A stretch of 40,161 bases of DNA. It comes from Alphaproteobacteria bacterium. GTDB lineage: Bacteria > Pseudomonadota > Alphaproteobacteria > SMXS01. The translations under genes were made by a program, and so were the position numbers. A model generated the notes under the pieces. That model saw nothing but the letters and a program-made list of their open reading frames with translations. It was not told the origin of the DNA and did no database searches. How positions within the stretch are numbered: the stretch's first letter is position 1; each line of letters starts with the position of its first letter. This document shows positions 24,457 through 29,956 of the stretch, in pieces. Location of the stretch: positions 1 to 40,161 of the forward strand of contig WGNW01000032.1 of assembly GCA_016124315.1 (NCBI GenBank), written 5' to 3'.

Positions 24457-25656
24457 CTACGCCGATATACGACACAGCGCCTGATCCAGATCTTCGATAA
24501 GGTCCTGCGCGTCCTCCAGCCCGACCGACAGCCGCAGCGTCGCCTCGAGGATGCCCAGTTCCAGCCGAGCCGCCTCGGCGAGGGAACGGTGGGTGGTGCT
24601 GGCCGGATGGGTCGCCAGGCTCTTGGCGTCGCCCAGGTTGTTGGAGATGTCGATGATCTGCAGCGCGTTGAGCAGCCGGAAGGCGGCCTCGCGCCCGCCG
24701 GGCACGTCCACGGTGATGACGCTGCCGCCGGCCGCCATCTGGCGCATCGCCAGCGCGTGCTGCGGATGGTCCTTGCGGCCGGGATAGAGCACCCGCGCCA
24801 GCCTGCCGCTCTCGGCCAGGAAGTCGGCCACCCTGGCGGCGTTCTCGCACATCCGGGTGACCCGCAGCTCCAGCGTCTCCAGCCCCTTCAGCAGCACCCA
24901 GGCGTTGAACGGGCTCATGGTCGGGCCGGTGTGGCGCAGGTATTGGTTCAGGTGATCGTCGAAGAACTGCCGGCTGCACAGGATGCAGCCGCCCAGCGCC
25001 CGGCCCTGGCCGTCGATGTGCTTGGTGCCCGAATAGACCACCACGTCGGCGCCGAAATCGGTGGGCCGCTGCAGCAGCGGGGTGGCGAACACGTTGTCCA
25101 CCACCACCGTGGCGCCCACTGCGTGGGCCAACTCGCACACCTTGGCGAGGTCGACCACGTCGAGGGTGGGATTGGCCGGGGTCTCGACGAACACGGTCTT
25201 GGTGCCGGGCGTGATGGCCCTTGCCCAAGCATCGTCGTCGGCGCCGGTCACCAGCTCGGTGGTGATGCCGTAGCGGGGCAGGATCTCGTCGATGATGTAG
25301 CGGCACGAGCCGAACAGCGCTTTCGAGGCGACCACCTTGTCGCCGGCGCGGAGCTGGCAGGTGAGCGCCGCGTTGACCGCCGCCATGCCCGTCGCGGTCG
25401 CCTTCGCCACCGGCATCCCCTCGAGCAGCGCCATGCGCTCCTCGAACATGGCGACCGTGGGATTGGACAGGCGCGAATAGGTGAAGCCCTCGGCGACGCC
25501 GGCGAACCGGTCGGCGGCGATCTCGGCCGCGTCGTAGCGGAAGCCCGAGGTCATGAAGATCGCCTCGGAGGTCTCGCCGAATTCCGAACGCTTCGTGCCG
25601 CCACGTACCAGGCGCGTGGCCAGCCGCCACTCGGAGGGCTTCTTCTTATCGGTCAT
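24457..25656 (-). CDS. metZ: O-succinylhomoserine sulfhydrylase
   Basis: The 399-residue Cys/Met-metabolism PLP enzyme makes homocysteine directly from an activated homoserine and sulfide. PLP binds Lys212 in YSGTKHIDGQGR; YSRLSNPTVAMFEERMA and VETPANPTLDVVDL are family motifs. MetZ is preferred over MetB/MetC from overall pattern (TSGFRYDAAEIAADRFAG). Its ATG lies inside the end of paiB (11-base overlap), and the pair is preceded by a SAM-II riboswitch, which independently supports a role in methionine synthesis. Confidence 0.94.
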   Translation of the reverse strand: MTDKKKPSEWRLATRLVRGGTKRSEFGETSEAIFMTSGFRYDAAEIAADRFAGVAEGFTYSRLSNPTVAMFEERMALLEGMPVAKATATGMAAVNAALTCQLRAGDKVVASKALFGSCRYIIDEILPRYGITTELVTGADDDAWARAITPGTKTVFVETPANPTLDVVDLAKVCELAHAVGATVVVDNVFATPLLQRPTDFGADVVVYSGTKHIDGQGRALGGCILCSRQFFDDHLNQYLRHTGPTMSPFNAWVLLKGLETLELRVTRMCENAARVADFLAESGRLARVLYPGRKDHPQHALAMRQMAAGGSVITVDVPGGREAAFRLLNALQIIDISNNLGDAKSLATHPASTTHRSLAEAARLELGILEATLRLSVGLEDAQDLIEDLDQALCRISA

Positions 25657-26263
25657 GGGCCGGTTCCTTCTCGTTGTCGGCCATCAGCGCCGCGACGGCC
25701 AGGTTGTTCTCTCCGCCCTGCCGCTCGAGGGCGGTCCGCACCGACCGCCGATCGGCCGGACCGCGGTTCTGCGACAGCTTCCATTTCGCCTCGACGCGCT
25801 CCAGCGGGATCTCGATGCCGACGATGCCGCGCCGCAGCGCCGTCAGCGCGCCGGCGTCCATCCGTTCCGGCGTCCACGGCGCCTTGGCGAGGCGCGCTTC
25901 CTCCTGGGCGACCAGCGCCCGCAGATGCGCCTCCAGCGCCTCCTCCGGCAGGCGCGACGCCGTGCCGGACACGTGCACCGCCAGGAAGTTCCAGGTCGGC
26001 ACCTGCGCGGTGTTCTCGTACCAGTCGGGAGACACGTAGGCGTGCGGGCCGGAGAACACCGCCAGCACGGGCGCACCCAGCGCCTGGCGCCAGATGGGAT
26101 TGGCGCGCGCCACGTGGCATTGCAGCGCCTGCCGCTCCCGGTCGAGGACGAAGGGGACGTGCGCCGCCTCCAGGCCCACGGCCAGCAGGCCGAAGGACGC
26201 CCCGGCGACGAGCCGCAGCGCCGCTTCGCGGTCGTCCTGCCTGAAAGGGTCCGGCACGTACAT
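25646..26263 (-). CDS. PaiB-like FMN-binding negative transcriptional regulator family protein
   Basis: The 205-residue protein has the PaiB signature: MYVPDPF at the N-terminus, then ARANPIWR and FSGPHAYVSPDWY, the split-barrel flavin-binding fold. PaiB is named after a Bacillus operon linked to polyamine acetylation, but the biochemical role of most members is unknown. The ATG at 26263 has GGAG six bases upstream; an earlier in-frame start would lie beyond that site, toward the terminator. It is the first gene after the SAM-II riboswitch and overlaps metZ by 11 bases. Confidence 0.92.
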   Translation of the reverse strand: MYVPDPFRQDDREAALRLVAGASFGLLAVGLEAAHVPFVLDRERQALQCHVARANPIWRQALGAPVLAVFSGPHAYVSPDWYENTAQVPTWNFLAVHVSGTASRLPEEALEAHLRALVAQEEARLAKAPWTPERMDAGALTALRRGIVGIEIPLERVEAKWKLSQNRGPADRRSVRTALERQGGENNLAVAALMADNEKEPAHDR

Positions 26264-26276
26264 GCGGTGCTCCAAA

Positions 26277-26309
26277 CACAAAAAACCCCGACCGGTGAAG
26301 GTCAGGGTT
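26277..26309 (-). terminator. Intrinsic terminator of the SAM-II leader
   Basis: On the minus strand AACCCTGACC (26309-26300) pairs with GGTCGGGGTT (26293-26284), with one C-A mismatch and the loop TTCACC. A run of T follows, extending to the paiB ribosome site. It lies after the aptamer and before paiB, as expected of an expression platform. Confidence 0.8.
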
Positions 26310-26317
26310 CGCCCGAC

Positions 26318-26372
26318 CGTTTAGCTGTTTTTTTAACGTGGCCGCAAGCTGGTCGCCAAATCGCCACGGACG
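26318..26372 (-). ncRNA. SAM-II (SAM-alpha) riboswitch
   Basis: On the minus strand stem P1 is CGTGGC (26368-26363) paired with GCCACG (26342-26337). The loop between starts GATTTGGC and ends with CTTGCG, the GAUUU...UUGC(A/G) pattern of SAM-II. After P1 come TTAAAAAAACA and GCTAAA (26325-26320), the conserved 3' tail that forms the pseudoknot. SAM-II aptamers bind S-adenosylmethionine and are known mainly from alphaproteobacterial met genes. Binding should reduce expression of paiB-metZ through the terminator downstream. Confidence 0.92.
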
Positions 26373-26400
26373 CCAGTGTTAGGCCCATTCGACGGCGCCG

Positions 26401-28803
26401 TCAAGCGTCCACCCGGTCCAGCAGCCGGCGGAGTTGGCGGGCCAGGTCCTGGTTGCGGAACGGCTTGCGCAGCACCGGCATCTCCTCGCCGCCGATGCGG
26501 TCGCGGGCCGTCTTCGGGTAGCCGGACATGAACAGCACCTTGAGGTCCGGACGGAGCTTGCGCGCCTCCTGGGCGACGTTGTCGCCGTAGAGCCCGCCGG
26601 GCAGCACGATGTCGCTGAGGAGCAGCGCGATCCCCGGCTCTCGCCCCAGCAGGGCCAGCGCCTTGGCGCCGTCCTCGGCGACGGAGACCTGGTAGCCCAG
26701 CTGCAGCAGCCGGCGCGCCATGAGGTCGCGCACGCCCGGATCGTCCTCGACCAGCAGGATGCGTTCGCCGCGGCCGTGCGGCACGGCGTCGCCGCCGCCG
26801 ATGCCCGTCCCCGCCCCGTCGGCCTCGGCGTGGCGGGGCAGGTAGACGGTCATGGTGGTTCCCTCCCCCGGCGTGCTGCGGGCGTCGACGGCGCCGCCCG
26901 ACTGCCGGGCGAAGCCGTAGACCATGCTGAGGCCGAGACCGCTGCCCCGGCCGGTCTCCTTGGTGGTGAAGAACGGCTCGAAGACCCGCGACAGGGTCTC
27001 CTCGTCCATGCCGCAGCCCGTGTCGGAGACCGATACCGTCACGTAGTCGCCGGGAACGAGCCCGTCGCCGACCGCGCCGTCGCCCTCTCCGACGGCCTGG
27101 TTGCGGGTCTCGATGGTGAGGGTGCCGCCCTGCTTCATGGCGTCGCGGCCATTGAGGGCCAGGTTGAGGATGGCCGATTCCAGCTGCGTCGGGTCGACGC
27201 GCACCAGCCACAGCCCGCTGTGCAAGGTCCGCTTCACCGCCACGCCGTCGCCGGCGGCCTGACGGATGATATCGGCGAACCCGGACACCAGGGCGTTGAC
27301 GTCGACCACGCGGGGCGAGAGCGCCTGCCGTCGCGAAAACGCCAGCAGCCGCTGGATCAGCAGCGCGCCCCGCTCCGAGGCGTCGATCGCCTTGCGCACC
27401 ATGCCGGCGGCCTCGGCCATGCCGTCGAGATATTCCTCGGCCAGTTCCAGATTGCCGATGATGACCGCCAGCAGGTTGTTGAAGTCGTGCGCGAGACCGC
27501 CGGTGAGCTGGCCCACCGTCTCCATCTTCTGGGCCTGGAACAGGGCGTCCGCCGCCTCCAGCTGCTCGGTGACGTCGCTGCAGGCGCCCCGGTAGCCGCG
27601 GAAGACGCCGGCGTCGTCGAAAACCGGCTTGCCGCTGACCTGGAGCACCCGCTGGTCGCCGGACATGACAGTGACCGGCACCCGCAGGTTGCGGTAGCCC
27701 CGCCGCTGCCGGATCGCCTCCGTCACCTCCGGCCAGTCGCCGGCCCGCAGCTCCGCCAGCGTGTCCTCGAAGCCCAACCGTCCCAGCAGCACCTCGGTCT
27801 CCGAGCCGACGAATTCGGCGAACCGCTCGGAGACGTAGAGCAGGCGGCCGCTCTCGTCGGTCTCCCAGAAGAAATCGCTGGCGCTGTCGGCGATGTCGCG
27901 CAGCCTGCGCTCGCTGACGGTGAGGTCGCGGCGCATCCGCCGCGCGACCTCGGTCGCGGCGTAGAGCAGCAAGCTGGTGGACGAGGCCAGCACGGCAAAG
28001 CCGGTCAGCGGGAACCACAGCGCCGGATATCCCACCACGACCAGCGGGCCGTAGCCCATGGCCGTGCCCACAAGGCCCCAGCCCAGCGTCAACGCCAGCA
28101 GCGCGCCCAGGGCCAGCAGATTGAAGCGCATGGCCATCCAGGCGAGGATCGGGAAATTGAGGATCAGGATGGCCAGGTGGACCGCCTGCGGCAGCGGCAG
28201 GACCAGAGCGGCCGCCGACACCGTCTTGACCGCGAAGACGGCCGCCAGTTCCCACCATTGGCGGACCGTCCAGCGCGGCCATCGGCTGGTCCTCAGGCCG
28301 AGCGCCAGCGGCGTGAACGCCATCAGGCTGAACGCCGCGCAGACCAGCCCGCCCAGGAGCAGCGGCACCAGGCCCCGGGCGGCCAGTCCAGTGGCGGCGA
28401 ATCCCGCGGAACCGGCCACCGCCGACACGGCGGCGTCGAGCGGCAGCGCGCCCAGCAGCAGGATGCCGACGTCGCGGAAGCGGTCGAGCTGCGGGCGTGC
28501 GCCGGCCCACCGGAAGACCGCCGCGCCCGCCGCCGCGCCGGCCGTGCCGGCGGCGGCGGCGATCAGCGCGTCGGGCGGCGCCAGACCGGCGGCCAGCGCG
28601 CCCAGCAGCCAGCCCAGCAACGCGCCCGGCCACAGCGCCAGCCCCCAGGCGGCAAGGGCGCCGAAGGCGAGGCCCGCCGGCACCCAGGCCGGCGGCGGAA
28701 TACCCAGGGTAAGGGTGAGAGAGGCGCTGGCCGCCGATGCCGTCATGCAGGCCAAGGCGAGCACGCCACACCACACCCACTGGGATGAGGATTTAGGAAC
28801 CAT
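26401..28803 (-). CDS. MASE1-domain hybrid sensor histidine kinase with C-terminal receiver
   Basis: The 800-residue protein has about eight membrane spans in the first ~285 residues, of the MASE1 type (PPPAWVPAGLAFGALAAWG, LWPGALLG). A PAS domain follows (~300-410), ending RGACSDVTEQLEA. The phospho-acceptor is His439 in GQLTGGLAHDFNNLL. ATPase boxes are N547-N551, DTGCGM (594) and GRGSGLGLSMVYG (618). The receiver has acidic EDD near 686, Asp731 and Lys780. No cognate response regulator is adjacent. The ATG at 28803 has AGGA directly against it, so the start is provisional. TATGAT at 28869-28864 is a possible -10. Confidence 0.93.
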   Translation of the reverse strand: MVPKSSSQWVWCGVLALACMTASAASASLTLTLGIPPPAWVPAGLAFGALAAWGLALWPGALLGWLLGALAAGLAPPDALIAAAAGTAGAAAGAAVFRWAGARPQLDRFRDVGILLLGALPLDAAVSAVAGSAGFAATGLAARGLVPLLLGGLVCAAFSLMAFTPLALGLRTSRWPRWTVRQWWELAAVFAVKTVSAAALVLPLPQAVHLAILILNFPILAWMAMRFNLLALGALLALTLGWGLVGTAMGYGPLVVVGYPALWFPLTGFAVLASSTSLLLYAATEVARRMRRDLTVSERRLRDIADSASDFFWETDESGRLLYVSERFAEFVGSETEVLLGRLGFEDTLAELRAGDWPEVTEAIRQRRGYRNLRVPVTVMSGDQRVLQVSGKPVFDDAGVFRGYRGACSDVTEQLEAADALFQAQKMETVGQLTGGLAHDFNNLLAVIIGNLELAEEYLDGMAEAAGMVRKAIDASERGALLIQRLLAFSRRQALSPRVVDVNALVSGFADIIRQAAGDGVAVKRTLHSGLWLVRVDPTQLESAILNLALNGRDAMKQGGTLTIETRNQAVGEGDGAVGDGLVPGDYVTVSVSDTGCGMDEETLSRVFEPFFTTKETGRGSGLGLSMVYGFARQSGGAVDARSTPGEGTTMTVYLPRHAEADGAGTGIGGGDAVPHGRGERILLVEDDPGVRDLMARRLLQLGYQVSVAEDGAKALALLGREPGIALLLSDIVLPGGLYGDNVAQEARKLRPDLKVLFMSGYPKTARDRIGGEEMPVLRKPFRNQDLARQLRRLLDRVDA

Positions 28804-29882: not shown

Positions 29883-29956
29883 GCGGGTGTAGCTCAATGG
29901 CAGAGCAGAAGCTTCCCAAGCTTACGACGAGGGTTCGATTCCCTTCACCCGCTCCA
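29883..29956 (+). tRNA. tRNA-Gly, anticodon CCC
   Basis: A 74-base cloverleaf: acceptor GCGGGTG pairs with CACCCGC, and the D arm is GCTCAATGGCAGAGC. The anticodon arm is GAAGC-TTCCCAA-GCTT with anticodon CCC; the T arm is GAGGGTTCGATTCCCTT, then discriminator T and an encoded CCA. It reads GGG codons, which are rarer than GGC in this sequence. It closely resembles the E. coli glyU product. Confidence 0.97.

Follow-up and report, generated by a model that had tools for sequence, protein, structure and literature searches.

A SAM-II riboswitch ahead of paiB and metZ in an alphaproteobacterial genus, with a pseudoknot strand shared by its predicted antiterminator

Genes, aptamer and promoter motif at the locus

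The window, the whole 40,161-nucleotide stretch of alphaproteobacterial DNA analyzed here, carries on its minus strand a SAM-II aptamer followed by an intrinsic terminator, a paiB-like gene and metZ. The paiB-like gene (25646–26263; ATG at 26263, stop ending at 25646) encodes a 205-residue protein that matches PF04299 (E 1.9e-44; 151.8 bits, cut-off 22.4) and no NCBIfam family at E ≤ 0.001. Its candidate ribosome-binding site is GGAG at 26273–26270. metZ (24457–25656), encoding O-succinylhomoserine sulfhydrylase, was assigned by TIGR01325 (548.4 bits, cut-off 510.05); NF005696 scores higher (608.4 bits) yet stays under its own cut-off of 675. The metZ ATG (25656) lies inside the end of paiB, with an overlap of 11 nt in the window and of 4 nt in each of the four further genomes that carry both genes. 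The first gene of the unit, which is predicted to be co-transcribed, is thus paiB and not metZ, as a preliminary description of this DNA had noted. Elsewhere in the window's genome we found a MetA homologue (PF04204) over cut-off and a MetX-like protein under cut-off (480.7 vs 500 bits). A tRNA gene is located at 29883–29953 of the window on the plus strand (RF00005, 66.8 bits).

A covariance-model search of the minus strand matched RF00521 at 26377–26301, aptamer and 3′ flank included, over 79/79 model positions (65.8 bits, E 9.5e-13), well above the gathering score of 36 bits. No other RF00521 match reaches E ≤ 0.001 in the genome of the window, which spans 3.95 Mb and is 84.1% complete. The match bears out the SAM-II identity proposed beforehand. 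P1 also lies where it had been placed, with CGTGGC (26363–26368) pairing with GCCACG (26337–26342), and the GATTT, CTTGCG and GCTAAA segments are all present. The P2 pseudoknot pairs CGACC (26351–26355), within the P1 loop, with GGTCG (26314–26318). In the crystal structure of SAM-II, the loop CUUG pairs with a CAAG-like tract to form P2a; in the window this tract appears weakened, with AAAAC in place of the consensus cAAgU. A search for a second SAM sensor, SAM-SAH, gave no match in the window's genome; it was equally silent in every control genome and therefore shows little.

To compare leaders, we used 36 sequences, nine from the order (window included) and 27 of 30 class loci that are high-scoring matches rather than a random set. 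The core expression was unmatched in four further leaders (L010, L012, L031 and L040), so that 36 of 40 loci enter the counts; L010, a 26-bit RF00521 match under cut-off in genome G008, is probably not a SAM-II. P1 pairs in all 36 leaders (216/216 cells), with four of its six pairs invariant and no both-sides change. P1 by itself therefore lends the aptamer no support from covariation, and the proposed check of its covariation, in which the pairing held throughout, proved uninformative. P2 was counted by script, as the best of five offsets, because the leader alignment is unequally spaced after GCTAAA. Its four core pairs form in 36/36 leaders through six strand combinations: GACC/GGTC (22), GGCC/GGCC (5), GGCC/GGTC (5), GATC/GGTC (2), GACC/GGTT (1) and GGTC/GACC (1). 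The last, in L039, is the one both-sides change, and the covariation support for the aptamer comes from P2.

Upstream of P1 lies a putative promoter, TTGACG-N17-TAACAC (26376–26404), with the −35 element at 26404–26399 and the −10 element at 26381–26376. Sequence comparison recovers TTGACN and TANNNN, 17 nt apart, just before P1 in all nine leaders of the order that exceed the cut-off; of the spacings from 15 to 19, only 17 gives the motif. The −10 element is TAACAC in seven, TATGAC in L002 and TAACTA in L006. A consensus promoter scan of 25600–26600 found none. The hybrid histidine kinase gene upstream has a stop codon that shares bases with the putative −35 element (26399–26404). Passages of PMC1273637 describe promoter elements a few nucleotides ahead of P1 as usual for SAM-II.

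Distribution and history of paiB behind the switch

RF00521 is found at E ≤ 0.001 in 10/10 genomes of the order and over cut-off in nine, and PF04299 in five of the ten, all of the window's genus. In those five, paiB stands between the switch and metZ, immediately after the switch; in the two other genera seen, g2 (G001) and g3 (G009), metZ follows the switch directly. The switch thus precedes a methionine gene in either arrangement, metZ being second in the window and first in G001 and G009. In the comparison of paiB-metZ leaders in relatives that the preliminary description had proposed, the switch is kept in the order, and paiB accompanies it in one genus. The computed gene order mscS – kinase – switch – (paiB) – metZ – apaG – folE – argE is otherwise conserved among genomes of the genus, within the extent of the stretches and contigs retrieved; outside the genus, the block is incomplete in G001, without an argE match, and G009, without kinase and argE matches.

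Two of the genus's seven genomes (G002 and G007) lack paiB, and both carry scars. In a MetZ+ApaG+FolE tree, the window's genome branches outside the group formed by the six remaining genomes of the genus (92/92), G002 pairs with G005 (95/94) and G007 pairs, more weakly, with G006 (82/87). Both ends of paiB remain in G007 around an internal deletion; against G006, one matches at 92% over 39 bases and the other at 94% over 52. The scar in G002 is weaker, 94% over 16 and 77% over 48 bases compared with G005. The simplest reading is that paiB was gained once, at the base of the genus, and lost twice. In the gap between terminator and metZ of G007 (L003) we observed by eye a 21-codon paiB remnant frame that still overlaps the metZ start and may keep translational coupling to metZ.

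Two public MAG records, L076 (CALQFM020000001.1) and L077 (CAMBYA010000053.1), bear the genus's switch-paiB-metZ stretch under the titles Candidatus Kuenenia stuttgartiensis and Rhizobium sp. Q54, which look wrong. L077 is identical to part of contig C53 of G006, and a 1-kb piece of L076 is unchanged in contig C1 of G005.

In a class sample of 289 genomes, SAM-II is over cut-off in 124 and PaiB is found at E ≤ 0.001 in 116. Matching the coordinates of the two by eye, with SAM-II matches listed at 36.8 bits or more, we found among the matches listed four genomes with paiB directly behind SAM-II (G000, G003, G004 and G005), all of the window's genus, and none in other genera. In G194, from another family of the class sample, SAM-II follows a PaiB gene of the same strand, ~2.5 kb downstream, instead of preceding it. 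None of 30 class PaiB loci has a close metZ within ~1.5 kb. A scan of 84,980 species genomes kept 80 of 170 PaiB relatives with flanks of up to 5 kb (56/80 loci are at least 10 kb long and the remainder end at contig ends). A SAM-II core with a close metZ occurs in two of the 80 loci, both of the window's genus; a general paiB-metZ association was looked for and not found. At the other 78 loci the flanks contain no close metZ, and two of these loci have a distant match of 33–35%. A search for other Rfam families near paiB covered 16 of the 80 loci and gave none over the gathering score; the remaining 64 were searched with the SAM-II regular expression only.

The sister group of the window's PaiB consists of L078, L079, L135 and L099 (support 100/99). 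In the last three, paiB is followed by a PRAI (trpF) gene; a LapA-domain gene separates the two in L079 and L135, and a PALP-family gene (probably trpB) comes after PRAI in L079 and L099. The ORF layout of L078 matches that of L079, a likeness of layout only. A methionine neighborhood is therefore not common even to the nearest relatives found. Over 10 pairs for each gene, dN/dS is 0.24–0.52 for paiB and 0.10–0.20 for metZ, so paiB is under constraint, though less than metZ.

From the position of paiB, the preliminary description had drawn a link between the PaiB family and methionine or SAM metabolism. A true functional partnership of PaiB with MetZ or this metabolism, selected under the switch, would fit the overlap of the two genes, the same placement in five of seven genomes of the genus and the constraint on paiB. 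We consider it unlikely, given two losses with different scars, a switch leading straight into metZ in the other genera seen, a paiB observed at the switch in one genus only and evolving faster than metZ, the 78 of 80 scanned loci and 30 of 30 class loci lacking a close metZ within the flanks covered, and three scanned sister PaiBs upstream of trpF-like genes. The proposed link is weak on these grounds. More specific, and quite improbable in our estimate, is that PaiB is a SAM-repressed heme protein aiding direct sulfhydrylation by MetZ, for example by dealing with sulfide or a by-product of hydroxylamine type close to a PLP enzyme. On this reading, with sister PaiBs near trpF, two of them accompanied by a PALP gene, PaiB-like proteins may repeatedly join PLP-enzyme genes of amino-acid metabolism. 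Most likely, metZ is the ancestral target of the switch, and paiB entered between leader and metZ in the window's genus as a dispensable passenger.

In Bacillus, PaiB has a role in protease and sporulation control. The closest structures in the PDB are the PaiB entries 2ol5 (E 6.2e-36) and 9vyc (E 8.6e-36), alike over residues 1–195 by sequence comparison alone. NohD (N-hydroxylamine dehydratase) and the piperazate synthases are also sequence relatives, with best E values of 1.4e-22 and 1.3e-16, and are farther from the window's protein than PaiB. The preliminary description called the product a flavin protein, and the Pfam name of PF04299 is putative FMN-binding. This is doubtful: passages of PMC13274692 report that PaiB binds heme and name His61, Asn66, Thr102 and Lys173 (synthase numbering) as heme or active-site residues. 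By motif and spacing, their candidate counterparts here are H50, N55, T90 and K162, which are invariant in 111/111 aligned PaiB rows, gathered by similarity, with the window's protein counted twice and 3/113 loci dropped for a short or interrupted match. The window's PaiB is probably heme-binding rather than flavin-binding. A literature search for riboswitch and PaiB, both as whole words, found no paper linking the two.

Mutually exclusive hairpins behind the aptamer

The terminator reported earlier behind the aptamer (26280–26310) has an 11-bp stem, 26310–26300 with 26293–26283, and a T run to 26280; the segment 26311–26277 folds at −18.5 kcal/mol. A terminator scan gave one per 1 kb compared with a mean of 0.6 (sd 0.9) in shuffles. 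As the scan alone is no better than chance, we accept the terminator only for its conservation in the order, where a 10–11 bp stem and T run occur at the same place in 9/9 over-cut-off leaders.

A competing hairpin (26300–26318) pairs 26318–26312 with 26306–26300 at −11.1 kcal/mol, with a pair probability of 0.84–1.0 in a transcript ending at 26298. It had been described with a second arm at 26307–26300; the hairpin stands, with one base fewer on that side. It had also been said to start next to the 3′ tail of the aptamer. It does compete there, by overlapping a P2 strand rather than merely adjoining it: the antiterminator 5′ arm GGTCGGG (26318–26312) includes the P2 3′ strand GGTCG (26318–26314). 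The two hairpins draw on one strand and exclude each other. When the P2 strands are masked, the antiterminator disappears from the truncated transcript, and P1 and the terminator both form in the full leader. The minimum-energy fold of the unconstrained full leader has the terminator and no P1. With the terminator the more stable of the two hairpins, the choice must fall during transcription, the only stage at which the antiterminator can win according to these folds. As the antiterminator arm contains the P2 3′ strand, SAM binding should hide the arm and free the terminator, which supports the OFF logic suggested at the outset, that SAM binding favors the terminator.

The sharing of this strand extends beyond the window. 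A terminator was found within 160 nt in 29 of the 36 leaders, and in 23 of these 29 sampled SAM-II leaders the P2 3′ strand can form at least 6 bp with the terminator 5′ arm, compared with a mean of 4.6 and a maximum of 11 of 29 in 1000 rounds of shuffled tails, a control that preserves composition and not the relatedness among leaders. Outside the order, 14 of 20 show an overlap of at least 6 bp, compared with shuffled tails (mean 3.1, maximum 9) and shuffled arms (mean 3.2, maximum 9). The shared-strand rule is not universal: six of the 29 terminator-bearing leaders lack the 6-bp overlap and seven of the 36 have no terminator found.

These seven leaders, together with a Sargasso Sea metagenome SAM-II that passages of PMC9373788 describe as probably translational, would suit a switch that controls translation by hiding the paiB ribosome-binding site, the hairpin merely ending a small RNA. 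Such control is very unlikely here, since the candidate GGAG lies downstream of the terminator, ~40 nt past P2 and outside it, and the 10–11 bp stem with its T run is conserved throughout the over-cut-off leaders of the order. A chance resemblance to SAM-II, in favor of which we found nothing except that a terminator alone is not rare, has a negligible probability and is refuted as far as sequence can do so by E 9.5e-13 over the whole window and by the nine of ten genomes of the order over cut-off, always ahead of paiB-metZ or metZ.

Predicted mechanism and meaning

The SAM-II riboswitch is, in all probability, a transcriptional OFF switch of the paiB-metZ unit, with metZ as its ancestral target and paiB as a passenger. 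Transcription would start just before P1, at a site predicted from the promoter-like motif. With little SAM, the 3′ tail GGTCGGG would pair with CCTGACC to form the antiterminator, and polymerase would continue into paiB and metZ. With SAM bound, as predicted, the 3′ tail would be held in the P2 pseudoknot; this would release CCCTGACC for pairing with GGTCGGGG downstream, and transcription would end near 26280.

The arrangement resembles the SAM-II elements described in passages of PMC1273637 in P1, the P2 pseudoknot, the conserved core, a promoter-like motif close ahead of P1, a terminator between P2 and the ORF, and a methionine gene in the unit. It differs in that paiB separates the switch from metZ and the tract facing the loop CUUG is slightly degenerate. 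The Sinorhizobium meliloti metZ leader, small RNA RZ, likewise has a SAM-II before metZ and, according to passages of PMC9373788, is predicted to terminate upon SAM binding; here, paiB intervenes between switch and metZ. We read the locus as an ordinary OFF switch of the SAM-II class, kept throughout the order, whose unusual first gene is a genus-level capture.

For PaiB, heme and not flavin is the first candidate for the cofactor, and the link to a methionine pathway is unsupported by its distribution. The most useful part of the finding is the shared P2 strand: with its 3′ strand predicted to serve also as antiterminator arm, the locus clearly illustrates a possible line of communication between a SAM-II aptamer and its terminator. 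It also shows how a unit under riboswitch control can take up, and lose again, a gene that seems unrelated to it; a riboswitch ahead of a gene is therefore alone no proof of that gene's pathway.
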